From Zoogloea sp. (GTDB lineage: Bacteria > Pseudomonadota > Gammaproteobacteria > Burkholderiales > Rhodocyclaceae), in NCBI RefSeq assembly GCF_028693495.1, contig NZ_JAQUVG010000022.1, forward strand, positions 1-38,208: 38,208 bases of DNA, in the 5' to 3' direction. Shown here piece by piece: positions 3,076-20,979 of this stretch; within the stretch, counting starts at the first letter, position 1; each line of letters starts with the position of its first letter. The translations under genes and the position numbers were made by a program. Under the pieces are notes generated by a model. The model ran no database searches and was not told the origin of the DNA. It saw only the letters and a list, made by a program, of their open reading frames with translations.

Positions 3076-6614
<3,539 letters not shown>

Positions 6615-6710
6615 GAATGTGAGCGGGCAGGCGGGCGGCGACTCGACGAGCAGGATTGCGGATTATGAAGGATGAGGCGAAAAACCTCGACTCTGGCTTC
6701 GGCCAACGAA

Positions 6711-6903
6711 GGTGTAAGCCTCGGGAAGGGGAGTGGTAGACGACCAAGTTACACCAACGCCTGCCGCCCGGCCGGTAGCCCTGATGCCTGCGGCAGCGGG
6801 TCCTGCCGCAACTGCGACAACACCACGCCAAGCGGGCGACGCTCAACGAGCGGCGCGCGCTTGGCCTACGTAGCCCGTGCGCGCCCGGCGCACGGGCGTA
6901 TGT
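6711..6903 (+). ncRNA. Structured RNA-like element, copy A
   Basis: This gene-free stretch (6615-7093) holds a set of helices found again at 12325-12529. P1 pairs GGTGTAA (6711-6717) with TTACACC (6749-6755) around a conserved purine-rich segment. P2 at 6827-6865 is a 39-base hairpin closed by GCCAAGCG/CGCTTGGC with a three-base loop. After the 7-base spacer CTACGTA comes P3 at 6873-6897 (GCCCGTGCGC/GCGCACGGGC), followed by GTATGT. P3 differs in sequence but keeps its pairing in copy B, which supports selection on structure. A further hairpin (ACGCGTCG/CGACGCGT, 6915-6935) follows. The element lies about 190 bases before the gene at 7094. I do not recognise the family. The strand is taken from the flanking plus-strand genes; a folded single-stranded DNA site is the alternative. 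Confidence 0.6.
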
Positions 6904-7093
6904 CTATCCCTCTCACGCGTCGCCCCTCGACGCGTCGTCACTGCTTCACCTCCCGGGAACCTAAGCACCTCGTCTCAAAGGGGCTTAGCTTGGTTTCGAT
7001 GTCGCTCCTGCGTGGGATCTTACTGGTCGAGGCGGTCCGGTGGGCGGACCCCCGTCACGGATACCCGAGATCGTCGGGAGAGAGGTCCCCAGC

Positions 7094-7507
7094 ATGAAAC
7101 GGAAACCGAACACCACAGATGAGCCCGTCGCCGTCGTCAGTGAGGACGATATCGAGGGGTGCCGCAATTCGCTCCTGTGGAGCCTGCGCGCAGTAGGGAC
7201 GGCCGCAGGCTTCCTTAGCCTTGAGGATGAAGAATTCCAGCAGTGGGTCGTCGAAGACAATGACTACTTCTTGATGGTCGTCCAGCTCCTCAAGATGCTG
7301 GCTGCCGACCAAGGTTATGCGGAGAGTGTGGCGGACATGCGGGAGAAGGCGGTAAGGAAGATTGCCAAGGCCATCGCTGCCCGGAATGATCCTGATACCG
7401 AGGCGCTCATCTGCGCCGAGATCGACTTTGAGCAGCTTCCGTCGATGCCCGATTTCCCCGGGGAGATGATCGATGCGCTGCGTCCGTCTGTCCGCGTCGC
7501 CCACTGA
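7094..7507 (+). CDS. Hypothetical protein, 137 aa
   Basis: I do not recognise this protein. It is acidic, probably all-helical and soluble, with a tryptophan- and phenylalanine-containing middle (LLWSLRAVGTAAGFLSLEDEEF) and no signal peptide or catalytic motif I can name. The ATG at 7094 follows a GAGAGG ribosome-binding site. An upstream in-frame GTG at 7040 would add 18 residues with poorer composition. It is the first gene after RNA element copy A. The next gene begins 14 bases after its stop, so the two are probably translated together. Confidence 0.62.
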   Translation: MKRKPNTTDEPVAVVSEDDIEGCRNSLLWSLRAVGTAAGFLSLEDEEFQQWVVEDNDYFLMVVQLLKMLAADQGYAESVADMREKAVRKIAKAIAARNDPDTEALICAEIDFEQLPSMPDFPGEMIDALRPSVRVAH

Positions 7508-7521
7508 GCCGGAGCGTGACC

Positions 7522-7782
7522 ATGAGCTATTGCCAAGTCTTCAGCCGTCAAATCGTAGATCCGAACGGGGATCTCATCGCTCTCAACCAGAACTGTAGGG
7601 TTCATCTCGAGCTTGATGTCCCGGCCGTCGTCGTACGTGAAGGGAACTTCATCCTCGGCTTCTACGAAGGGTGGGCGTGTGATGAACTCGTGTTCATCCG
7701 GGACGAACTCATCGCCGTCCTGCTGGACCCCTTCCATGCTCCGGCTCCCGACTGGTGCCCGCTCTTTGGCGCTGAGGGTTGA
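7522..7782 (+). CDS. Hypothetical small protein, 86 aa, paralogue of the gene at 9004
   Basis: The ATG at 7522 lies seven bases after a GGAG ribosome-binding site. A GTG two codons earlier is possible but less likely. The protein is clearly related to the 83-residue product at 9004-9255. Both have F-(S/T)-RQI-(I/V)-DPNGD near the N-terminus, a lone cysteine about ten residues later, EG followed by an IRDE motif, and end with DP..AP-PDW. It looks like a small mixed alpha/beta fold. I know no function for it. Retention of two diverged copies either side of the gene at 7888 suggests partner or subunit roles. Confidence 0.68.
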   Translation: MSYCQVFSRQIVDPNGDLIALNQNCRVHLELDVPAVVVREGNFILGFYEGWACDELVFIRDELIAVLLDPFHAPAPDWCPLFGAEG

Positions 7783-7834
7783 GGCAGTGTGATGATTCGT
7801 TCAGTCTTGCTTAGCAAGCGCTGATCGTTGTCGG

Positions 7835-7872
7835 CCCGGAACGGTGTGATGCCGTTCCGGGATTTTGTTTTT
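7835..7872 (+). terminator. Hairpin and T-tract leader before the gene at 7888
   Basis: A perfect 10-base stem CCCGGAACGG / CCGTTCCGGG with a 7-base loop is followed by ATTTTGTTTTTG. It has the form of an intrinsic terminator but ends only a few bases before the GTGGAGG ribosome-binding site of the next gene. It therefore either ends transcription from the upstream pair or acts as a 5' leader attenuator. Confidence 0.75.
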
Positions 7873-7887
7873 GTGGAGGTTGAGATT

Positions 7888-8910
7888 GTGTCCAAGGAAT
7901 TGAAGGCGCTGGAGTACCCTGCGTGGTCCGAGTTCCTCGCGTTCGAGCAGGCTTACCTGCAGTGCCTGATCGACATCGCTCACGCCCGCCGCGGTCGTCC
8001 GGTTGTTCGGGACGTGGTTAAGGACGGGGTTGTCCAGGTGACTACCGTCCCGAGGGAAGCGGGCCTCTACACTCCGGATGTACGTGGATACATCGATGGG
8101 GGCCTTGTGTTGCTGCGGCAAGGGGCGGTCGGCGCCTGGTTGCTTAAGGTCCGTCAGCTCCGTCTGGATGGCACGGTCTGGGCGGCGCGGCGGGATTTCA
8201 AGGTCGGCCAGGATGCGCTCGGCGGTGACGAGCAGGGGCTGAACGCGTGGCATACGATTCGTGAGTACCAGGAGCGGGAGCGCGACCTGCGCTTCTTCGG
8301 CGAGTACGCGATGCTGTCGGCGCGCTTCCACTGGAACACCTGGAATCCCCACACGACCACGAAGGCCGATGTGGAGCGTGTCGCCAAGCTGCAGGTTGAG
8401 CTCCGATCAGAGCTGGATAAGCTCATGGCCGACCGTTACCTGCGTCGCCACCTGTCGCCCCAGGATCTCGCCGCGGTTCCGCACTTGATGCAGATGTTGG
8501 ACGGGGTGCGCCAGTCCTTCGAGTTTGTCGTGAAGGAGGCGCCGGGACTGCACCCGTTCCAGCGCTACCACCCCGATGACGGGCGTGGCCTACGGCAGGC
8601 CGTTGCGGTTGAGTTGGTCGACCTGTGCTTGTTGTGCTTCGGGCAGTGTCCTGCGTCGATGCTGGAAGAGTTGCTGGCGGGCATGGGGGCCGAATTGCCC
8701 TCGGCCTTGTCCAAGTGGCTGCGGGAGCAGATCAAGACCGGTGAAGCCCATCTCGAATCCCAGGCGCAGATGCGCAACTTCGTGAATGTCGGGCTCCCCC
8801 GCGACCAGGAGGACGATCCCCGGCGCCCTGCGTATGCGGTATTCCCCTGGTTGGATAGTGCTCTGGCGCGGCATGTCGTTGTCGACGGGGGGGAAGCTAA
8901 GGCGGGGTAA
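7888..8910 (+). CDS. Hypothetical protein, 340 aa
   Basis: I do not recognise this soluble, mostly helical protein. I chose the GTG at 7888 because GGAGG lies about ten bases before it and the hairpin leader ends just upstream; the frame is open further up, but that part overlaps the hairpin. Recognisable stretches are WNTWNPHTTTKADVERVAKL in the middle and a C-terminal segment HPFQRYHPDDGRGLRQ, with no clear nucleotide-binding or nuclease motif. No signal peptide or membrane segment is visible. It lies between the two paralogous small genes, in the block with the PolB. A replication-accessory or defence role would only be a guess from position. Confidence 0.68.
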   Translation: MSKELKALEYPAWSEFLAFEQAYLQCLIDIAHARRGRPVVRDVVKDGVVQVTTVPREAGLYTPDVRGYIDGGLVLLRQGAVGAWLLKVRQLRLDGTVWAARRDFKVGQDALGGDEQGLNAWHTIREYQERERDLRFFGEYAMLSARFHWNTWNPHTTTKADVERVAKLQVELRSELDKLMADRYLRRHLSPQDLAAVPHLMQMLDGVRQSFEFVVKEAPGLHPFQRYHPDDGRGLRQAVAVELVDLCLLCFGQCPASMLEELLAGMGAELPSALSKWLREQIKTGEAHLESQAQMRNFVNVGLPRDQEDDPRRPAYAVFPWLDSALARHVVVDGGEAKAG

Positions 8911-9003
8911 TGTCACGGGCTTGGCTTCCTAGCGTGATTTCACGGTCAGGCATCCTGAAATCCCGGCCTTGAGCCGGATCTTTCAACCACCAGGAGCCTC
9001 ATC

Positions 9004-9255
9004 ATGAGCAAGAGCCGTCGTTTCACCCGCCAAATCATCGACCCCAATGGGGACTATATCTCCCTCAACGATCGCTGCAGCGCCAGCATCATCCAAGAGC
9101 GTGTGGCCGTCCTGAAGGAAGGGCTGCGGATCATTGGCTACTACGACAAATGGCCTGATCTGGACAAGCTCAAGTACATCCGCGACGAGTTCATTCGTGT
9201 CATGCAGGACCCCCGTAACGCGCCTGACCCCGACTGGACGGTGCTCGCCGCTTGA
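9004..9255 (+). CDS. Hypothetical small protein, 83 aa, paralogue of the gene at 7522
   Basis: The ATG at 9004 follows a CAGGAG ribosome-binding site. The protein shares with the 86-residue product at 7522 the blocks FTRQIIDPNGD, EGLRIIGYYDKW, KYIRDEFIRVMQDP and APDPDW at about the same spacing, so the pair arose by duplication. It has no transmembrane segment or known catalytic motif. A weak CCGGC/GCCGG hairpin at about 8963-8977 precedes it, in keeping with the leader pattern of this region. The function is unknown. Confidence 0.7.
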   Translation: MSKSRRFTRQIIDPNGDYISLNDRCSASIIQERVAVLKEGLRIIGYYDKWPDLDKLKYIRDEFIRVMQDPRNAPDPDWTVLAA

Positions 9256-9323
9256 GTAGGTGCATGTGTCATGGGGATGGCCTGTGCGCGGTCCCCGTTT
9301 CGATCCTCGATTGGAGATGTGTG

Positions 9324-9506
9324 ATGACTGAACCCTCCTTCCAGTTCGATCCCGCGGGGGGTCGGTCCGAGCAGTTCGATACACGCGATACCCCGTCTGG
9401 CGGCTTGCCGCCCGGCGGCGTGGTTTTTATCGGCATGGATGCCGAATGGATTGCCGTGGCCGACGACTGGTGCGATCTCCCCCTCTCCCGGATCTTCGAA
9501 GAATGA
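9324..9506 (+). CDS. Hypothetical small protein, 60 aa, with a DAEW motif
   Basis: The ATG at 9324 follows TTGGAG. The open frame extends upstream into a GTG overlapping the previous gene, but that start has no matching ribosome-binding site. The product is acidic. Its centre, GGVVFIGMDAEWIAVADD, resembles the exonuclease I motif EVLIGLDAEWGHDPAT of the PolB encoded next. It may be a regulatory mimic or a degenerate duplicate of that part of the polymerase. A GGGGA/TCCCC hairpin at 9273-9296 lies in its leader. Low information content limits confidence. Confidence 0.5.
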   Translation: MTEPSFQFDPAGGRSEQFDTRDTPSGGLPPGGVVFIGMDAEWIAVADDWCDLPLSRIFEE

Positions 9507-9540
9507 TCCTTTGATCCGGAACCTTCCCTCCACAGCTTGC

Positions 9541-9570
9541 GGGCATGGCGACAACGCCATGCCCTTTTTA
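9541..9570 (+). terminator. Hairpin and T-tract leader before the PolB gene
   Basis: A perfect 10-base stem GGGCATGGCG / CGCCATGCCC with loop ACAA is followed by TTTTTA. The CAGGAG ribosome-binding site of the polymerase gene begins six bases later. It is a textbook intrinsic terminator in form, placed as a 5' leader. Confidence 0.8.
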
Positions 9571-9588
9571 TTGCGCAGGAGTGCCTGC

Positions 9589-12330
9589 ATGAGTCCCAAT
9601 GTGTTGAATGCCACGACACCGGCCGATGACCCGCCGGCGATCGTCCCCTACACGCCATCCGTTTCCGATATCGTTTTCGATCCCCTCAAGATGCTGGAGC
9701 GTGAGCGCCAGATCCAGCTCAACGAGCTCCAGATCCTGTCCTCCGCCCCGCCGGGCGTCCTGCTCGAAGGGACCGGTCCGGAAGTGCTCATTGGACTGGA
9801 TGCCGAGTGGGGTCATGACCCTGCCACCCAGAGCAATCTGGTCACGAGCATCCAGTTCCATGTCGTCGGTGAATGCGGCGAGTTCGCCCACATCCACTAC
9901 GTCAAGGGCGGGCGGAAGGATGACCGGCCCAAGTTTGCCAAGCTCCTCACCGAGGTCATCCTGATGGCCATGGAGGCGGGTGTCATCCTCGAATGGCCGA
10001 AGAGCGTGACCGTGTCGGCCTTCTTTCTGCGGGCTGATCTGACCGCGTTCTCCGACCTGGCGCGCTTCAAGACCCAGCTCGATAGCGTCGGCGGCAGCGT
10101 CGGCACGCGGGGTGAAGGCATCGCCTTCGACGCCCACATCGAGCCCCAGGACATCGAGCGCCTAACCCGCTCTCGGCGCTTCATCGTTGATGATGAGGGC
10201 CGTGGTCGGGTGTTGCAGGTCCGCTTCGTCGATCTGGTGCGCCACACCCCGGTCGGTACAAACCTCGCCGAAGTGGGCGTGCTGCTCGGCCAACAGAAGA
10301 TCGAACTGCCGCCGGGCGCCATCGAGAACATGCCGCAGCTCTTGATCGACGACCCGGTTCTCTATGCCGAGTACGCCGCCCAGGACGCCCTGATCGCCGT
10401 GTATTTCCTGTGCCGTCTCAAGGAGAGCATCGCCCGCCTGCTCGGTAAGCCCAAGCTCCCGCTCACGAACAGTGGTGTGTCAGTCAGCCTCTTCAAGAAG
10501 ACCTTGAAGGACGCCGGCCTCAAGTTCAACGAGGTTTTCGGTAGGCGGACGCAGTCCGTCAGCGTCTGGGATGAAGAGAACGGGCGGGTCCGGACGGTCA
10601 GCGAAGGTGCCCCGCTGCCGATGCGGACCATTCATGCCGCCTTCGTCACCATGACGGCCCACGGTGGTAGAGGGGAGTGCTTCCACGTCGGCCCGACGCC
10701 CGTGGGCGTCTGGTACGACATCGACCTGGCCAGCGCCTACACCACAGTGCTCGCTATGCTTGGTCTGGTGGACTTCGAGCACCCCTACGTGTGCCTGGAT
10801 ATCAAGCAGTTCATCGGCCATGTGCTTGGTTTTGCGTTGGTCGAGTTCCGTCATAGCGCGCACGTCCGCGCCCCTGTGTTTCCGGTCGAAGGGGAGGGCC
10901 AGAACCTGTTCTTCGTGCGAAGCGGTATCTCCTACTGCACGGCGCCGGAGATCGAGGCTGCGCTCCACATCGACCCGGACATGGAGATCCGCATCCTCCA
11001 CGGCGTCATCTACCCGTGGAAGGACGCGAACGTCCGCCCCTTCGAGCCTTTCGTGACCACCATTCGCGACCAGCGTGCCCAGTACCCCAAGGGCAGCTTC
11101 GACAACGAGTACATCAAGCTGTGCGGCAATGGTCTTTTTGGACGCACAGGCATGGGCTTGAAGCCGAAGAACGTGTTCGATGCCGGGGCGCTCAAGAGCG
11201 TGCAGCTGGAGCCCGACGAGATGACCAACGAGGTCTTCTTCAGCTTCACGATGGGCTTTGTCCGCGCCCTCATTGCCGAGCTGATGAACAGCGTGCCGCG
11301 CCATCGCACGCTCGTCAGCGTGACGACCGACGGCTTCCTGACCGACGCGCCCCTCGCCGAGATCGACCAGGGCGGGCCGCTGGCCAGCCGCTTCAAGGCA
11401 GCGACGGCCCGCGTAGCGCCCGGCAAACCGATCCTGGAGGTCAAGCACCGAACCCGGCAGATCGTCTCAGCCCGTGTCCGTGCCCAATTCACCGGGCTGA
11501 TCGACCCGAGCCCGGAGCTCGAGGATGAGAAGCGGTTCGTCCTCGCCAAGGGCAACGTCATCCCCGAGATCGACCTGCCGCCAGGGGAGGTCACCAAGCC
11601 CATGATCAAGGCGCTGCAGAACGCCTACATGCTTGATCTGTACCTGAACCGCACGCCCACCTCGAAGACAATGATGCGGCCCTTCGTGAGCCTGCGCCAG
11701 CAATGGACGGAAGACCTTGACGTCTTCCGCATCGAGCGGCCGGTCCGTCTCGGGCTGGAATTCGACTGGAAGCGCAAGGCGCTTAACCCGCGCATGCAAA
11801 CGGTCGGGGAGGGGGCTGCAGTCAAAGGCGAACACATTGCGCTGGATACCGAACCATGGGACACCGTCGAGGAAGCCGAGGCGGTGCGCGTCGTCTTCAA
11901 CAAGGCTTGGCGGGAGGAGCGTTGCCTCAAGACCCTGGAAGACTGGACCCACTGGGCGGACTTCTCCGGCGGCGCCATCAAGCGCAGGCGCAAGAAGGCT
12001 GATGGTGGGGCGGGTATCCACCGGACCCGGGAGGGCGAGGTCGGTGTGTTGCGCCGCACCTTCCTGCGTGCCTATGCCCAGGAGGCGTGGGGCCTCAAGA
12101 AGACCGAGACCTATGGCGTGATCGCCGCCTGGCTCACCGACGCCGGCTACCCGACCACGGAAACCGAGCTCAAGAACGCCAAGCGGGCCAAGCTGGGTGA
12201 AGGGGTTGTCGGGCTGAATGACGAGGTCAAGGCGCTGCTGGCGGTGCTGCGTGGGCGTTTTCCGGAGCTGGAGGTGGCGAGGTTCGTCGGCGACGTCGAT
12301 GCGCGCCTGATTGACGCCGAGTCAGTGTAG
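9589..12330 (+). CDS. Divergent family B DNA polymerase with 3'-5' exonuclease domain
   Basis: This 913-residue protein has an N-terminal DnaQ-like proofreading domain: Exo I LDAEW (D71, E73), an Exo II-like TAFSDLARF (D156) and Exo III YAAQD (Y262, D266). The polymerase core follows with motif A DLASAYT (D379), motif B KLCGNGLFG (K510 to G518) and motif C SVTTDGFL (D581). These match the viral/organellar PolB family, including protein-primed and primer-independent (pipolin) types. They differ from its usual motifs: NS-YG has become NG-FG, and DTD has become TTD. The two catalytic aspartates that bind metal in characterised PolBs are kept. The ATG at 9589 follows CAGGAG; open frame upstream overlaps the terminator. 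It probably replicates or repairs the mobile element. About 300 residues C-terminal to motif C are not recognised. Its stop codon lies in helix P1 of RNA copy B. Confidence 0.72.
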   Translation: MSPNVLNATTPADDPPAIVPYTPSVSDIVFDPLKMLERERQIQLNELQILSSAPPGVLLEGTGPEVLIGLDAEWGHDPATQSNLVTSIQFHVVGECGEFAHIHYVKGGRKDDRPKFAKLLTEVILMAMEAGVILEWPKSVTVSAFFLRADLTAFSDLARFKTQLDSVGGSVGTRGEGIAFDAHIEPQDIERLTRSRRFIVDDEGRGRVLQVRFVDLVRHTPVGTNLAEVGVLLGQQKIELPPGAIENMPQLLIDDPVLYAEYAAQDALIAVYFLCRLKESIARLLGKPKLPLTNSGVSVSLFKKTLKDAGLKFNEVFGRRTQSVSVWDEENGRVRTVSEGAPLPMRTIHAAFVTMTAHGGRGECFHVGPTPVGVWYDIDLASAYTTVLAMLGLVDFEHPYVCLDIKQFIGHVLGFALVEFRHSAHVRAPVFPVEGEGQNLFFVRSGISYCTAPEIEAALHIDPDMEIRILHGVIYPWKDANVRPFEPFVTTIRDQRAQYPKGSFDNEYIKLCGNGLFGRTGMGLKPKNVFDAGALKSVQLEPDEMTNEVFFSFTMGFVRALIAELMNSVPRHRTLVSVTTDGFLTDAPLAEIDQGGPLASRFKAATARVAPGKPILEVKHRTRQIVSARVRAQFTGLIDPSPELEDEKRFVLAKGNVIPEIDLPPGEVTKPMIKALQNAYMLDLYLNRTPTSKTMMRPFVSLRQQWTEDLDVFRIERPVRLGLEFDWKRKALNPRMQTVGEGAAVKGEHIALDTEPWDTVEEAEAVRVVFNKAWREERCLKTLEDWTHWADFSGGAIKRRRKKADGGAGIHRTREGEVGVLRRTFLRAYAQEAWGLKKTETYGVIAAWLTDAGYPTTETELKNAKRAKLGEGVVGLNDEVKALLAVLRGRFPELEVARFVGDVDARLIDAESV

Positions 12331-12529
12331 GTAGCGGGAAGGGGAGTGATATACGACAGAGTTACACCGATGCGGGCGTGACGAGTGGCTGTTACGGCGG
12401 TGAGGCAGGCTTGCCGTCATCCTCCAGCGCTCGGGTGGCGGCTGTTGCGACTTGCCAAGCGGGCGACGCTCAGTGAGCGACGCCCGCTTGGCCTAGGTAG
12501 GGCTTGCGCGAAAGCGCGAGCCCGTATGT
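12325..12529 (+). ncRNA. Structured RNA-like element, copy B
   Basis: This copy has the same layout as copy A. P1 pairs GTGTA (12325-12329, including the PolB stop codon) with TACAC (12363-12367) around a 26-base segment nearly identical to copy A. P2 at 12454-12492 is a 39-base hairpin with GCCAAGCGGGCG/CGCCCGCTTGGC and a three-base loop. A 7-base spacer CTAGGTA is followed by P3 at 12500-12523 (GGGCTTGCGC, GAAA tetraloop, GCGCGAGCCC) and GTATGT. A mismatch inside P2 of copy A is paired here, and P3 is replaced base by base with pairing kept. It lies 83 bases before the GIY-YIG/LRV gene, so it may be that gene's leader or an independent RNA. Confidence 0.6.
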
Positions 12530-12612
12530 CCCTTGGGTTACGTGTCTCTAGTTTCGGGCTAGGGGGGCAGTATTTGGGTAAAGTTGCGGAGAGAAAAGTA
12601 GGCGAGGGCTCT

Positions 12613-14502
12613 ATGAAGGGTTGGTTGTACGTTATTTCGAACCAAGCGGTGAAGGGGATGGTGAAGATCGGCGCTACGGCGAGGGACCCCCTCGCTTACG
12701 CGGCGGGGTTAGATAAGGGAGGCCTGCCTTTTCCGCACAAGGTGGGTTACGAGGCGCTCGTGCCTGACATCGAGGAGGCGGAGAGGATCGTTGCTACTGC
12801 CCTGGCCGATCAGGCTGAAGGGAAAGGGTGGTTCTCCTGCACTGTCGCTGAGGCAGTGAGGAAGATTGCAGGTGCCATCTCCGGCTCGATCTTGATGGAG
12901 ACCCGTTACGATGAACAAAGCCGAATTGACAAGTGGTACGACGAGGTTACCAACCCCGATCCGGCTAGGCGTGCTGTCGTGCTATCTGATCCTTCGTGTC
13001 CTCCCGACGTTCTGCAGTTTGCATTGGGGAGGGAGGAGGATGAAGGCGTTCTCTTAGCCATGCTGGCGAATCCGTCGTGCGAGGCTCTCGGAAGCGAGCT
13101 CACTGAGTTCGCGGACAGAATGAAAGGGAACCGTGCGGTACTTCTTGCCATGGCTTCGAATCACCGTCTGCATTCTGAGGTGCTCGAATCTGTCTACTTG
13201 GCGAGAGTGGGTGGGGAGTCACCAGATAGCGTAACCCTTGCTCTCGTGAGAAACCCGAGATTTCCTGTGGGGCTGCTGGTGGATGCGATGCTGGAGTGTG
13301 ACGCGCCTAATGAAATTATCCCTGCTGTCGTAGCTCGGTGGGATTGCGTGTCGGAAGCACTCGCCATGGCTGTCTATGTGAGCCCAGACAACCCCGTGTT
13401 GAGGGCTATGGCCAAGAGGCATCATCGATGGTCCCCCGAAGCGTTTCGAACGCTTCTCGAAGATAGCAAGGAGTCCTGCCCTCCATGTGTCGCTGAGCAT
13501 CCGGATTGCCCTCCGGATATCTTGGAGGAGCTTTGGAGATCGGGAGATATGGAAACAGCTGAGGCAGTGCTGTTAAATCCTGCTTGCCCGCCGCGGATAC
13601 TTGTTGAGGCCTCTGTGGCGGGGGAGGCTGAAACGCGTTCGGCTAGTGCAGTAGCGCAGCTCGCCGATCTGGCGATGTCTAATCCGTCGAATCCACTAGT
13701 CCTCGTGCAAGCAGCGGCGAGCACGGATGAGTTTCATGCGCTTGCTCAGTCTCCGTTTCCCCGAGTAGTCCTGCGTACTGCCGAAAACCCCGCCTGCCCT
13801 TCGGAGATCCTTGCCCTACTTTCTAAGCACGGGGATGCTGACGTGCGCAGAGCCGTGGCAGGTAACCGGTCCAGCGTTCCTGCAGTTCTCTCTGCCCTGG
13901 CTTGCGACTCCTCAGAATCCGTTAGGGTGGCCGTCGCTGAGCGTTCTGATTGCCCAAGGGAGGCGCTCGCCAGACTGGCCTGCGACTCATCCGAGAGCGT
14001 CAGGATTACCGTCGTTTTGCATCCGGGGTGTCCTGCGGAGGCCCTCGCAAACCTTGCGGACGACAGGGTGCCGGTGGTTCGAGCCGCGGCAGTCCGGAAT
14101 CCTAAATGCCCGCGTGACGTTCTCGAGAGCTACGCTGCGCATGAGCTGTTTGAGTGGCGTCTCATCGTGCTTGATAACCCTGCATGCCCGGAGCCTGTTG
14201 TCGAGATGCTGTTAAAAGATGCTGATCCGCGGGTAGTCGCCGCCGCTAGGCGGATCAAGTTAGGGCCAAAAAAGCCCAAGGCTAAAAGAGTGAAGGAGGA
14301 GCCGATTGAGGTCATCCGGGAACGGTTCCGCAACTATGTGCGTAGGACATTAGGTGCTGTGATTGAGGAGTCTGAACTGCTTCGCTTGGCGGAACTCCCA
14401 GGTGACGCGAAGAAGAAGTTCGCACAGGCGTATCCGAGTCAGGCGAAACAGCTCGCGCTTTTTGAAAAGTACCTTCTTCCGAGGCTCTCGAAGAGGGGGT
14501 GA
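12613..14502 (+). CDS. GIY-YIG/T5orf172-like domain fused to leucine-rich-variant repeats
   Basis: This 629-residue protein starts at the ATG at 12613, after GAGGG; the longer frame upstream runs through RNA copy B and is unlikely. Residues 3-75 (GWLYVISN, VKIGAT, EEAERI, WFSC) resemble the T5orf172/MUG113 branch of GIY-YIG domains, which bind or cut DNA. The arginine usual in the middle of the domain seems to be absent (DPLAYAAGL), so nuclease activity is uncertain. Residues from about 110 to 560 carry roughly 24-residue repeats of the form NP-CP--L--LA-D----VR-AVA, typical of LRV/HEAT-like solenoids, many with a cysteine before the proline. A basic stretch (GPKKPKAKRVKEE) and a short helical C-terminus follow. 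Codon use is less GC-rich than in the neighbours, pointing to separate acquisition. A target-sensing effector is a plausible but unproven role. Confidence 0.65.
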   Translation: MKGWLYVISNQAVKGMVKIGATARDPLAYAAGLDKGGLPFPHKVGYEALVPDIEEAERIVATALADQAEGKGWFSCTVAEAVRKIAGAISGSILMETRYDEQSRIDKWYDEVTNPDPARRAVVLSDPSCPPDVLQFALGREEDEGVLLAMLANPSCEALGSELTEFADRMKGNRAVLLAMASNHRLHSEVLESVYLARVGGESPDSVTLALVRNPRFPVGLLVDAMLECDAPNEIIPAVVARWDCVSEALAMAVYVSPDNPVLRAMAKRHHRWSPEAFRTLLEDSKESCPPCVAEHPDCPPDILEELWRSGDMETAEAVLLNPACPPRILVEASVAGEAETRSASAVAQLADLAMSNPSNPLVLVQAAASTDEFHALAQSPFPRVVLRTAENPACPSEILALLSKHGDADVRRAVAGNRSSVPAVLSALACDSSESVRVAVAERSDCPREALARLACDSSESVRITVVLHPGCPAEALANLADDRVPVVRAAAVRNPKCPRDVLESYAAHELFEWRLIVLDNPACPEPVVEMLLKDADPRVVAAARRIKLGPKKPKAKRVKEEPIEVIRERFRNYVRRTLGAVIEESELLRLAELPGDAKKKFAQAYPSQAKQLALFEKYLLPRLSKRG

Positions 14503-17385: not shown

Positions 17386-17674
17386 CGCCCCGCCAAGCCG
17401 GCTGAACCGGCCGGTAATGGACCGGGGCGTGGCAGCCCCGGGCGCGCCTGAGTCCGCGCCGGTCGATCACCTCAGCCTCTGCAAGCTGTTATGAGCGTGC
17501 GTCCCCATCGCCGTGCCAGCGGACGACGGAGACGTAAGACCTGAGCTGCCGGCCCGCTTTATCACCCATCCCCCCTCCCGACTTGCCGCCCCGCATTCCG
17601 TGGGTCGGCTCCTTTTTTGGCGCGGAAGCCAGAACAAACTGATAGCGAGTTGCCGATTCGGCCCTCGCCATGCT

Positions 17675-17716
17675 CGGCCGCCCCGGTTCCTATCCGGTCG
17701 CGGCCGTTCTTTTTTC
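17675..17716 (+). terminator. Hairpin and T-tract leader before the integrase gene
   Basis: CGGCCG (17675-17680) pairs with CGGCCG (17701-17706), with CCGG/CCGG pairing inside. TTCTTTTTTCTTGT follows, and the AGGAAAGG ribosome-binding region of the integrase comes directly after it. Confidence 0.6.
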
Positions 17717-17738
17717 TTGTCAGGAAAGGACCATCACC

Positions 17739-18944
17739 ATGGCCGAGAGCAAGACTTTCGATTTCACCAACCGGCGCATCAAGGCGCTGCCGCCCCAGTT
17801 GCCCACCGCCGCCGCCAACGCCGCGGCTTACTCCGACTCCGCCGTGAGTGGCCTCAAGCTTGAGGTCACCAAGACGGGCCGGAAGACCTTCATCTTCCGG
17901 TTTGTGCTGGACGGCCAGCGCGGTTACGCCCGTATCGGCGAGTTCCCGGCGATCGATGTGGCCGAAGCCCGCAAGGCGGCAATGGAAATGAAGGGGCAGG
18001 TCGAGCGCGGACTCAACCCGAACGATGTCCGTGATCGCTCCCACGCCGTGATCCCGACCTTCCGGGATTTTGCGATGGACGAGTTCGTTCCCTACATCCT
18101 GGAGATGGGGAAGCGAACCGCCAAGGATGACATTTCCAAGCTCAACCACCACCTGCTGGCGCGCTTCGGCGACATGAAGCTGACCGCCATCGGCCGCCGC
18201 GACATCGAGCTCTATCACGCGGCCGTGCGCGACAGCCACACTCCCGCCACGGCCAACCGGCACTTGGCGTTGCTCAGCGCGATCTTCCGCCGAGCGGTGG
18301 AATGGGAGCGTGTCGAGAAGAATCCCTGCACCGGGGTCAAGATGTTCCGCGAGAACAACGCCAGCGAGCGCTTCCTGACCGAAACCGAGATCGCCAAGCT
18401 GGTGCAGGCGATGGATGCCGACCCGAATCGCACCGCTGCCGCTGCACTCAAGATGCTGCTGCTGTGCGGAGCCCGCCGGAACGAGGTCGCCAAGTTGAAG
18501 TGGAGCTCGTTGGACCTGGAGCGTGGCGTCTGGCTGCTACACGGTGATCACACCAAGAACGGCAAGACCCGCCGGATCGCGTTGAGCGATGCCCTGGTCG
18601 AGCTCCTGCAGGCTCGGCCCAGCCGCGGTGTGTCCGAATGGGTCTTCCCGGGCCGTGATGGCCCCGAGAAGCCTATCGACAACCTGACCAAGCCGTTCAA
18701 CCGGATGCTGAAGGCGGCCGGGCTGGAAAAGGCGCGCATTCACGATCTTCGTCACACGCACGCTAGCATGTTGCTGGCGAGCGGCGTGGATGCTGTTGTC
18801 GTAAAAAATGCCCTTGGCCACAGCTCCTTGAATGTCACATCTCGGTACCTGCATCTAGTCGATACCAGCCTGAAGTCGGCCTCGGAAGCGATGGCGCGGG
18901 TGGTGGGTCGGGCGGCCGAAAGCGCTGTCACTGAAGTAGTTTAG
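17739..18944 (+). CDS. int: Tyrosine recombinase/integrase (DUF4102-type N-terminus)
   Basis: This 401-residue phage/ICE-type integrase has an arm-binding N-terminal domain (SDSAVSGLKLEVTKTGRKTF, then ARIGEFPAIDVAEARK), a core-binding domain at about 100-190, and a C-terminal catalytic domain. Visible catalytic residues are the Arg in LLCGARRNEVAKL, Lys in HTKNGKTRRIAL, the HDLRHTHASML box, the His of LGHSSLNVTSRY and the Tyr of SRYLHL. It would integrate and excise the element by site-specific recombination. The ATG at 17739 lies after AGGAAAGG. It is the last well-supported plus-strand gene before slyD and the tRNA-Lys genes, consistent with a position near the right end of the element. Confidence 0.93.
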   Translation: MAESKTFDFTNRRIKALPPQLPTAAANAAAYSDSAVSGLKLEVTKTGRKTFIFRFVLDGQRGYARIGEFPAIDVAEARKAAMEMKGQVERGLNPNDVRDRSHAVIPTFRDFAMDEFVPYILEMGKRTAKDDISKLNHHLLARFGDMKLTAIGRRDIELYHAAVRDSHTPATANRHLALLSAIFRRAVEWERVEKNPCTGVKMFRENNASERFLTETEIAKLVQAMDADPNRTAAAALKMLLLCGARRNEVAKLKWSSLDLERGVWLLHGDHTKNGKTRRIALSDALVELLQARPSRGVSEWVFPGRDGPEKPIDNLTKPFNRMLKAAGLEKARIHDLRHTHASMLLASGVDAVVVKNALGHSSLNVTSRYLHLVDTSLKSASEAMARVVGRAAESAVTEVV

Positions 18945-19587: not shown

Positions 19588-20175
19588 GTGCCTGTTCCCG
19601 AGCCGTTCGAGCAGTTCACGCTAGATCTCCTTCCTGAGGAAGAAGTGTCTTTGCGTGCTTCAACTGCTGACGATGGGGATGATGACTTCGTCTTGTTCGT
19701 GACCGATGAGAAGTCTTTGTTGGACGTCCCGGTACGAGTCGCGCGGGTTCCGGCATTCGGTGATCGTGATGTGCTTATCGAGAGCATGCTGCCCGCAAGC
19801 CGATCCTTGCTGCACCTTGTTTATGAGGTGCTGGTAAATGGTGAGTGGAAGCTGCAAGAGCTGCGCATTAAGGATGCCGCGCCACTCCGGTTTGCTTGTC
19901 CAACCAGTCCAAGAGTCTATGGCGGGAATGAGCCTCTTGAACGATTACGACCACTTATCGGTCTCCGCCCGGAAGTTCGGGCCCCGCCAGTGATTGGCGG
20001 CAGCCTTGGATCACGAAGCCCTTGCCGCACTGGAAGGGCTTCTTTTTTTGTGGAAGCTGGTTATCAGGTTTGTGGCTTGCCGGATCAGTCTTCGCTCTCG
20101 GCGGTGCCGTTGGCCAGTTCTTCAGCGGTGGCCGGGCGGACCGCAGCGACCGTGCAGGTGAAGACCAGGGCTTGA
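19588..20175 (+). CDS. Hypothetical protein, probably missing its native 3' end
   Basis: A GTG at 19588 follows TTGAGG at seven bases. The first 110 or so residues look like a real acidic globular protein (for example PEEEVSLRASTADDGDDDFV and LVYEVLVNGEWKLQELRI). After about residue 115 composition changes. The frame then reads through the terminator-like hairpin at 20015-20049 and 91 bases into the 3' end of slyD on the opposite strand. That suggests the original end was lost or replaced when the element's right boundary formed. No function is recognised. Confidence 0.4.
   Translation: MPVPEPFEQFTLDLLPEEEVSLRASTADDGDDDFVLFVTDEKSLLDVPVRVARVPAFGDRDVLIESMLPASRSLLHLVYEVLVNGEWKLQELRIKDAAPLRFACPTSPRVYGGNEPLERLRPLIGLRPEVRAPPVIGGSLGSRSPCRTGRASFFVEAGYQVCGLPDQSSLSAVPLASSSAVAGRTAATVQVKTRA
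20015..20049 (+). terminator. Orphan hairpin and T-tract at the presumed element end
   Basis: A perfect 9-base stem GAAGCCCTT / AAGGGCTTC is followed by seven T and then GTGGAAGCTG. The tail closely resembles the leader TTTTTGTGGAGGTTG before the gene at 7888, yet no plus-strand gene follows. It faces the 3' end of slyD and may be a remnant of an element leader. Confidence 0.7.
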
Positions 20176-20561
20176 CCGGCCAGAGGGTGGTTGCCATCCA
20201 GGGTTGCCTCATCACCATTGATCTCGGTAACGCGGTAGACGATGACTTCGTCGTCGTCGTCTTCATCCGTTGCTTCGCCTTCCAGCTCCATGCCGATTTC
20301 GATTTCTTCGGGCAGCTTGTCGAGGGGTTCGATCTGCACCAGTTCTGGGTCGTATTCGCCGAAGGCCTCGTCGGCGTGGAGCCGGACGGTGACCGTGTCG
20401 CCGATGGTCTTGCCGTCGAGCGCTTCCTCCAGCTTGGGAAACAGGTCGTCGTGGCCGCCGTGCAGGTAGATGAGGGGCTCCTTGCCGTCATCGACCTCCA
20501 CGCCCTCAGGGTTGGTGACGCGGTAGTTGAGGGTGACGACGCTGTTCTTGATGACGTTCAT
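20085..20561 (-). CDS. slyD: FKBP-type peptidyl-prolyl isomerase, SlyD-like
   Basis: This 158-residue protein begins VIKNSVVTLNYRVTNPEG and has the FKBP flap/active-site region LIYLHGGHDDLFPKLEEALDG, the insert-in-flap domain (GEYDPELVQIEPLDKLP) and NHPLAGQALVF near residue 130. These are typical of SlyD/FkpA-like cytoplasmic prolyl isomerases with chaperone activity. The histidine-rich nickel-binding tail of E. coli SlyD is absent; the protein ends acidic (ANGTAESED). I use the ATG at 20561, preceded by CAGGAA on the minus strand; the frame is open to 20840 but that part overlaps the tRNA terminator. It marks the start of core chromosome. Confidence 0.88.
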   Translation of the reverse strand: MNVIKNSVVTLNYRVTNPEGVEVDDGKEPLIYLHGGHDDLFPKLEEALDGKTIGDTVTVRLHADEAFGEYDPELVQIEPLDKLPEEIEIGMELEGEATDEDDDDEVIVYRVTEINGDEATLDGNHPLAGQALVFTCTVAAVRPATAEELANGTAESED

Positions 20562-20766
20562 GGGTACGGATTCCTGGATGAAGGATCGAATGATGGGGGC
20601 GATGTGGGTTCGTCGGCTTGCAGGGATGGGGCGCTGTAGTGTCGCAGGTAAAGATGAACGCTTGGGGGGGCGCTGGAGCGAACTGCCGATTGGTCGCCCG
20701 CAACGGATGGCTTGGCCGGGGAAAAGGCTACCCGGAAATGGACCGAACCACGGACTAAATGTCCGC

Positions 20767-20806
20767 GTAAAAAGACTTAGGCCACCCGGAGGTGGCCTAA
20801 GTCTTT
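20767..20806 (-). terminator. Strong terminator after the tRNA-Lys pair
   Basis: A perfect 16-base stem AAAGACTTAGGCCACC / GGTGGCCTAAGTCTTT with loop CGGA (as read on the plus strand) is followed on the minus strand by a T-run. It ends the tRNA transcript before slyD. Confidence 0.9.
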
Positions 20807-20814
20807 GAAATTCT

Positions 20815-20890
20815 TGGTGGGTTGTGAGTGGCTCGAACACTCGACCTACGGATTAAGAGTCCGCTGCTCTACCAACTGAGCTAACAACCC
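20815..20890 (-). tRNA. tRNA-Lys (anticodon CTT)
   Basis: The minus strand gives a 76-base cloverleaf: acceptor GGGTTGT/ACAACCC, D-loop AGCTCAGTTGGTAGAGC, anticodon loop CTCTTAA, T-loop GTTCGAGCC, discriminator A and encoded CCA. The anticodon CTT reads AAG codons. It lies 13 bases downstream of the second tRNA-Lys and shares its transcript. Confidence 0.95.
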
Positions 20891-20903
20891 AATTCCCTGA
20901 AGC

Positions 20904-20979
20904 TGGTAGGTCGTGCGGGATTCGAACCTGCGACCAACGGATTAAAAGTCCGCTGCTCTACCAGCTGAGCTAACGACCC
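20904..20979 (-). tRNA. tRNA-Lys (anticodon TTT)
   Basis: A 76-base cloverleaf lies on the minus strand, with acceptor GGGTCGT/ACGACCT (a G-U closing pair), anticodon loop CTTTTAA, T-loop GTTCGAATC and encoded CCA. It reads AAA and AAG. It is the first gene of the tRNA transcript. tRNA genes are common integrase targets, but no partial copy of its 3' end was found near the integrase. Confidence 0.95.

Follow-up and report, generated by a model that had tools for sequence, protein, structure and literature searches.

The stretch of DNA analysed here (the window) comprises all 38,208 nucleotides (nt) of Zoogloea sp. contig NZ_JAQUVG010000022.1 (assembly GCF_028693495.1, positions 1-38,208, forward strand), and it holds two copies, A and B, of a conserved element of ~200 bases. 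An earlier examination of the letters alone (the original prediction) had described two copies sharing three helices in the same order, with a 39-base P2, a 7-base spacer (CTACGTA or CTAGGTA) and GTATGT after P3; each of these features was verified in both copies, where it had been placed. Three further copies were designated C (same genome, contig C64), L014 (another Zoogloeaceae genome) and D (in genome G962). A and B have four parts in common, equal in order and orientation: the P1 box (45 nt), the P2 hairpin (39 nt), a spacer of 7 nt, and the P3 hairpin. Their positions, with those of the linkers, are:

6711-6755, + strand: copy A, P1 box, a 7-bp inverted repeat flanking a purine-rich core
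6756-6826, + strand: copy A, linker of 71 nt, fast-changing, with no significant structure (folding z -1.18)
6827-6865, + strand: copy A, P2 hairpin, 39 nt
6866-6872, + strand: copy A, spacer CTACGTA
6873-6897, + strand: copy A, P3 hairpin, then GTATGT at 6898-6903
12324-12368, + strand: copy B, P1 box, whose 5' arm contains the last codon and stop of PolB (GTG TAG, 12325-12330)
12369-12453, + strand: copy B, linker of 85 nt (folding z 0.01)
12454-12492, + strand: copy B, P2 hairpin, nearly perfect
12493-12499, + strand: copy B, spacer CTAGGTA
12500-12523, + strand: copy B, P3 hairpin, re-paired with altered sequence, then GTATGT at 12524-12529

The boxes common to A and B exceed chance. Allowing up to 3 mismatches, the pattern of the P1 core had 2 matches in the window, whereas 100 shuffles averaged 0.00, and the stretch from P2 to P3 of one copy aligned with that of the other at a BLAST E value of 3e-10. 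Conservation is unequal along the element: A and B are identical at 36/45 positions of the P1 box, 35/39 of P2, 6/7 of the spacer, 27 of the 68 aligned positions of the linker, and 14/24 of P3.

BLAST of the Zoogloea genome with copy A retrieved copy C, at position 4673 of C64. A pattern search returned the same three places (A, B and C), all forward, and no copy beyond these, which all lie on C64 and C96, was found in that genome by BLAST, pattern or model searches. Copy C retains P1 with one mismatch, and its P3 is paired through a different sequence. The exact-pattern scan of 84,980 species genomes yielded a sole locus, L014, from Zoogloeaceae bacterium EBPR_Bin8. This locus starts with the tRNA-Lys repeat (97% over 101 bases) and holds the orthologue of A behind a frame of 94 amino acids (94 aa); its hmaA is reduced to the start and an inner piece (L014 939-1098 and 1-200), and its genome has no second copy. 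The 94-aa frame appears winged-helix-like by eye and has no Pfam match. Copy D came out of a model search covering 148 relatives of G906, the genome that carries L014. A distance of 1.4 kb separates it from a tRNA-Lys repeat, and Phd-like and BrnT toxin-antitoxin genes adjoin it. By eye, a transposase-like frame starts directly behind the L014 element and a transposase-like fragment lies behind D. All five copies are within islands with tRNA-Lys-derived repeats, in one orientation, and 27 of the 45 columns of the P1 box are invariant across them.

Between A and L014, for segments picked after the alignment had been viewed, the boxes are identical at 111/116 positions and the linker at 40/71 (Fisher p 5e-11), while the flanks (92/107 upstream, partly hmaA coding sequence, and 49/54 downstream) also exceed the linker (p 6e-7). 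The linker is ungapped and still homologous (28/57 in its first part, p 0.0018, with 20 transitions and 9 transversions). It is thus the boxes that are constrained, and the linker between them, presumably a spacer, has evolved faster than the sequence on either side of it. The flanks, too, may be under constraint, and the excess of change in the linker has no firm explanation. Codon-phase counts in the linker (13/8/10) carry no coding signal. A coding element was rejected: a frame is open through A and L014, but by eye it meets a stop in B, and the linker lacks codon-phase bias. A leader peptide started by GTG was dropped because its length varies between copies (by eye). The linker was not retained as a guide either. 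The best other match of the A linker in its own genome has an E value of 0.06; that of the B linker, 26 of 30 bases on contig C101 (L057 1501-1530, E 0.0017 for the genome), is unexplained, and it lies in a stretch that is non-coding according to the list of open reading frames (ORFs) and contains neither a P1 box nor a match to our search model R1.

When A, L014 and B are aligned, 97.1% of the 102 cells are paired, and 4 of the 34 pairs are changed on both sides (3 in P3, 1 in P2). This pairing with its double changes was reached by 4 of 500 shuffles. The result comes from three sequences, and the shuffle count, as the tool warns, is not to be read as a probability; structures slid by 1-3 columns had 26-48% of cells paired and 0-1 double changes. 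As the original prediction had it, the sequence of P3 differs between A and B with its pairing kept (all ten pairs in both, through three double changes and one wobble), and a P2 mismatch of A is paired in B (G-G versus G-C). The changes that preserve pairing in the additional copies are a C-G to U-A in P2 of L014 and a G-C as the seventh P1 pair of D. The check proposed earlier, significant covariation among homologues, is answered in part, by the four double changes and the P1 change in D, from five copies at most, two of them incomplete. On the + strand the whole element folds with z values of -1.98 (A), -4.15 (B), -3.17 (L014) and -3.34 (C), and the linker is unstructured (-1.27 to 0.36). 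In three of four copies (A, L014 and C), folding z was lower on the + than on the - strand. The exchanges on the + strand include three G-U (P1 pair 7 and P3 of B, P1 pair 6 of C) versus one A-C (P1 pair 1 of B); this 3:1 ratio gives a weak hint of RNA from the + strand, the events being too few to decide.

The setting of the element, a mobile island with antiviral defence genes, was reconstructed from two contigs. HmaB is split across them: of its 967 profile positions, 1-315 are at the left end of the window and 321-966 at the right end of C64, so that C64 would continue the window leftward and most likely adjoins its left end. Repeats of the tRNA-Lys region are found at C64 2781-3049, at C64 4027-4294 and at window 20602-20867, the last beside two tRNA-Lys genes (20815-20979). 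The right part of the island includes:

17670-18944, + strand: tyrosine integrase (Pfam Phage_integrase E 2.5e-33, Arm-DNA-bind_3 E 2.4e-15), context and not part of the element
20602-20867, no strand: right island repeat, reaching into tRNA-Lys 20815-20890; its partner is C64 4038-4297, at 94% identity

If the contigs adjoin, the island measures ~28 kb and its order is: repeat, C, the leftward Hma block with PtuA of Septu, A, rightward small genes with PolB, B, an LRV-repeat gene with RadC, integrase, repeat. A, B and C are positioned at the borders of cargo blocks. That a gene of unknown function follows every copy, as had been proposed, applies to A and B, whereas C faces the 3' end of HmaC. 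The tRNA-Lys region is duplicated together with an FKBP-like gene, at 94% (C64 2225-3049 and 4027-4297; window 19837-20867); judging from this duplication the islands seem to be in tandem, with a PIN-domain gene in the short one.

The two copies of the window bracket the PolB block, as the prediction had remarked. This bracketing is incidental, since no PolB was found near C, L014 or D (the ORFs of C64 (L010) and of L014, and those listed for L098, showed none) and R1 has no convincing match at the genome's second PolB (contig C167, L017). A PolB-linked RNA, such as a retron-like template, was rejected on the same grounds. An element linked to Hma was rejected as well, the loci of HmaA relatives being without a convincing match: R1 had 2 weak matches, taken as chance (E 0.051 and 0.45), in 26 loci (35-96% identity, up to 1.5 kb of flank), and our second model, R2, had none in 29 loci and none in 6 longer stretches. 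Nine loci are similar to 6500-9500 of the window. Similarity ends at 6613 in six of them and at 6596 and 6615 in two; the leftward start codon of hmaA is at 6614, ~100 bp from the P1 box of A. For L072, of the same genus, it ends at 6696, fifteen bases before the element, and the L072 contig stops 190 bases on.

Wider scans were carried out on genome sets that may overlap. The pattern (up to 3 mismatches) matched 1 of 399 genomes of the order, and R1 matched convincingly 1 of 249 genomes of the family, each time the genome of the window; 40 further family genomes with R1 matches at E 0.03-0.9 were taken as chance. Among the 148 relatives of G906 that yielded D, R1 was convincing in two, a third match (G960, E 0.008) being rejected with the P1 core outside its alignment. 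Among 396 relatives of G962, R2 was convincing in two; the matches in G1170 (E 0.02) and G1323 (E 0.05, inside a long ORF) were taken as chance, as were weak R2 matches in L014 (E 0.61) and in the window (E 2). Viral contigs gave no useful match by pattern or in the PolB scan, plasmids none for A and one for B at E 0.6, and phages two records for B (E 0.7) and nothing useful, in collections that may exclude records of the genome itself. The prediction had found no known RNA family to which the element could be assigned, and this is borne out at Rfam thresholds: no family reached its gathering score, and the window at threshold contains two tRNAs only. Lax thresholds gave 2 matches around A, 5 around B and 5 in L010/L014, all below gathering scores, the best being BjrC68 at B (16.2 bits versus 39 needed).

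The element is a well-supported and very rare conserved structure. We tentatively read it, with a confidence somewhat short of even, as a candidate structured non-coding RNA of the + strand, borne by tRNA-Lys islands near the ends of their cargo blocks. Among the genomes searched the element is confined to such islands. It would be carried by islands that integrate at tRNA-Lys and be transcribed from the + strand. The P1 box, a 7-bp closing stem round a nearly invariant purine-rich core, would be the sequence-specific part, probably in contact with a protein or an RNA; P2 and P3 would be hairpins of which chiefly the fold is preserved, with a probable role in the stability or termination of the RNA; and the linker would have a spacing role only. 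A box conserved in sequence, hairpins conserved in structure and a free spacer together fit a structured RNA best, short of proof.

A series of observations weighs against this RNA. The element is very rare, with three carrier genomes in all scans and five copies. Copies D and C depart from a single fixed three-helix unit: D consists of the P1 box alone, without P2 and P3, and in C the P2 pairing of A is broken (three pairs flagged), another hairpin being predicted at its place (z -3.60, for a segment picked after viewing the fold). Folded alone, the P1 box is not unusually stable (z -1.73 in A, 0.14 in B, -0.96 in C); that the stem is no more stable than shuffles, together with the lack of a family match for the 94-aa gene, slightly lowered our confidence. 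Folding of copy B is as strong on the - strand (z -4.56) as on the + strand (-4.41). No promoter-like or T-tailed terminator-like site lies inside A or B, and the intrinsic terminator test placed none of its 9 terminator-like sites in 6500-13000 within either copy. Template switching could yield compensatory changes without selection, and inverted repeats could act as DNA. From the selected structured RNA of the original prediction, a conserved element with pairing-preserving changes stands, while its RNA nature is unproven in view of D, C and the DNA alternatives.

Compared with an RNA, a border site acting as DNA accounts equally well or better for the positions, but less well for the linker. 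Such a site, possible but on the unlikely side in our estimate, would mark the junctions of cargo blocks, each block ending in one element as integron cassettes do in attC, and would serve block gain or loss by recombination between boxes or through a recombinase acting on the folded strand. A, B and C do lie between blocks (tRNA-Lys repeat / C / Hma-Septu / A / PolB / B / LRV), in one orientation, and Hma relatives of ~90% DNA identity are without the element, the similarity of six of nine other loci stopping at the hmaA start codon. Moreover, PolB at copy B and the 94-aa frame at L014 both take their GTG and stop from the P1 arm, in the same frame; to arrive at this stop, PolB extends 12 residues beyond the part homologous to the second PolB. 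This frame was not counted elsewhere (12 codons only in A, no stop in C, antisense to the BrnT gene in D). The 94-aa frame having no Pfam match, however, PolB is the only gene that surely ends in the element. A linker of constant length with point changes is unexpected from copy exchange, at no site was a block observed both with the element and lacking it, and the tRNA-Lys integrase is the sole recombinase noted. A broader version, which we consider quite improbable, would make the element the hinge of cassette-like tRNA-Lys defence islands, a folded site closing each multi-gene defence block, at which whole blocks (Hma/Septu, PolB, LRV) would be gained and lost; the P1 box would then be the recognition core, and P2/P3 would be hairpins read by structure.

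It seems distinctly unlikely that the element is a decayed non-autonomous repeat, similar to a miniature inverted-repeat transposable element (MITE) or a repetitive extragenic palindrome (REP), which multiplied once in the island and is now inactive. Several copies do lie on one island, the element has no known function, and GTAG before P3 in A, B and L014 is reminiscent of REP sequences. Yet many scattered copies would be expected of a REP or MITE, and the genome has three, all on C64/C96 and none outside the island; by eye there are no terminal inverted repeats or target duplications, and the boxes of A and L014 are more conserved than their flanks, contrary to decay. We give even less credence to the P1 box as an operator, that is, a protein-binding DNA site for leftward genes beside which P2 and P3 would be incidental hairpins. 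In both A (hmaA) and D (BrnT, 9429) the box begins ~100 bp ahead of the start codon of a leftward gene, and D has the P1 box alone, but B lies between two rightward genes, C is at the 3' end of HmaC, and in L014 the 94-aa frame separates the hmaA remnant from the box. The loci of Hma relatives, besides, have no such box, and P2 and P3 are conserved as well.

Comparison with known systems gives partial likenesses. Orphan structured non-coding RNA motifs of the Rfam type, of unknown function, similarly combine a conserved box with hairpins that undergo pairing-preserving changes in non-coding DNA; the present element, a putative transcript, has far fewer copies and no Rfam match at gathering score. 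Integron attC sites are likewise folded sites at gene ends, in a single orientation and one per cargo block, whereas the blocks here are multi-gene and no integron integrase was noted; no attC core site was seen by eye against the consensus, and no search was made. The hairpins of REP and bacterial interspersed mosaic elements are similar to A, B and L014 in that GTAG leads into a GC-rich hairpin, but the element has only three genome copies, in one island, and its conserved box is 45 nt long. Phage RNAs that act in cis through two hairpins, HK022 put for example, share two hairpins with a short spacer; they differ in that our element has an extra P1 box and that C has no rightward gene behind it. 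As an RNA, the element would represent an undescribed family bound to one kind of defence island. As a border site, it would give a concrete handle on an open question, the assembly of multi-gene defence blocks on islands.

Some neighbouring genes deserve mention. In the gene behind B (12613-14502), the N-terminus matches the PADLOC candidate PDC-S57 (E 2e-11) and LRV repeats come after it. Ahead of PolB, 7516-7782 and 9004-9255 encode small paralogous proteins (46% identical) without a family match. The two PolB-like proteins of the genome (window 9439-12330; L017 9076-11964) are 37% identical by BLASTP, and among 274 genomes of the class a PolB match was obtained in this genome only. The window protein has no Pfam, PHROG, NCBIfam, PADLOC or PDB-sequence match; in tblastn it is similar to polymerases encoded by small plasmids of Staphylococcus and Fusobacterium (24%, E down to 5e-24). 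By eye, its counterpart on C167 has a restriction-type helicase and also a DnaJ-like frame nearby. A short frame ahead of the window PolB (9252-9506) contains GMDAEW, which by eye resembles the exonuclease-like motif GLDAEW of PolB, and is perhaps a PolB remnant.

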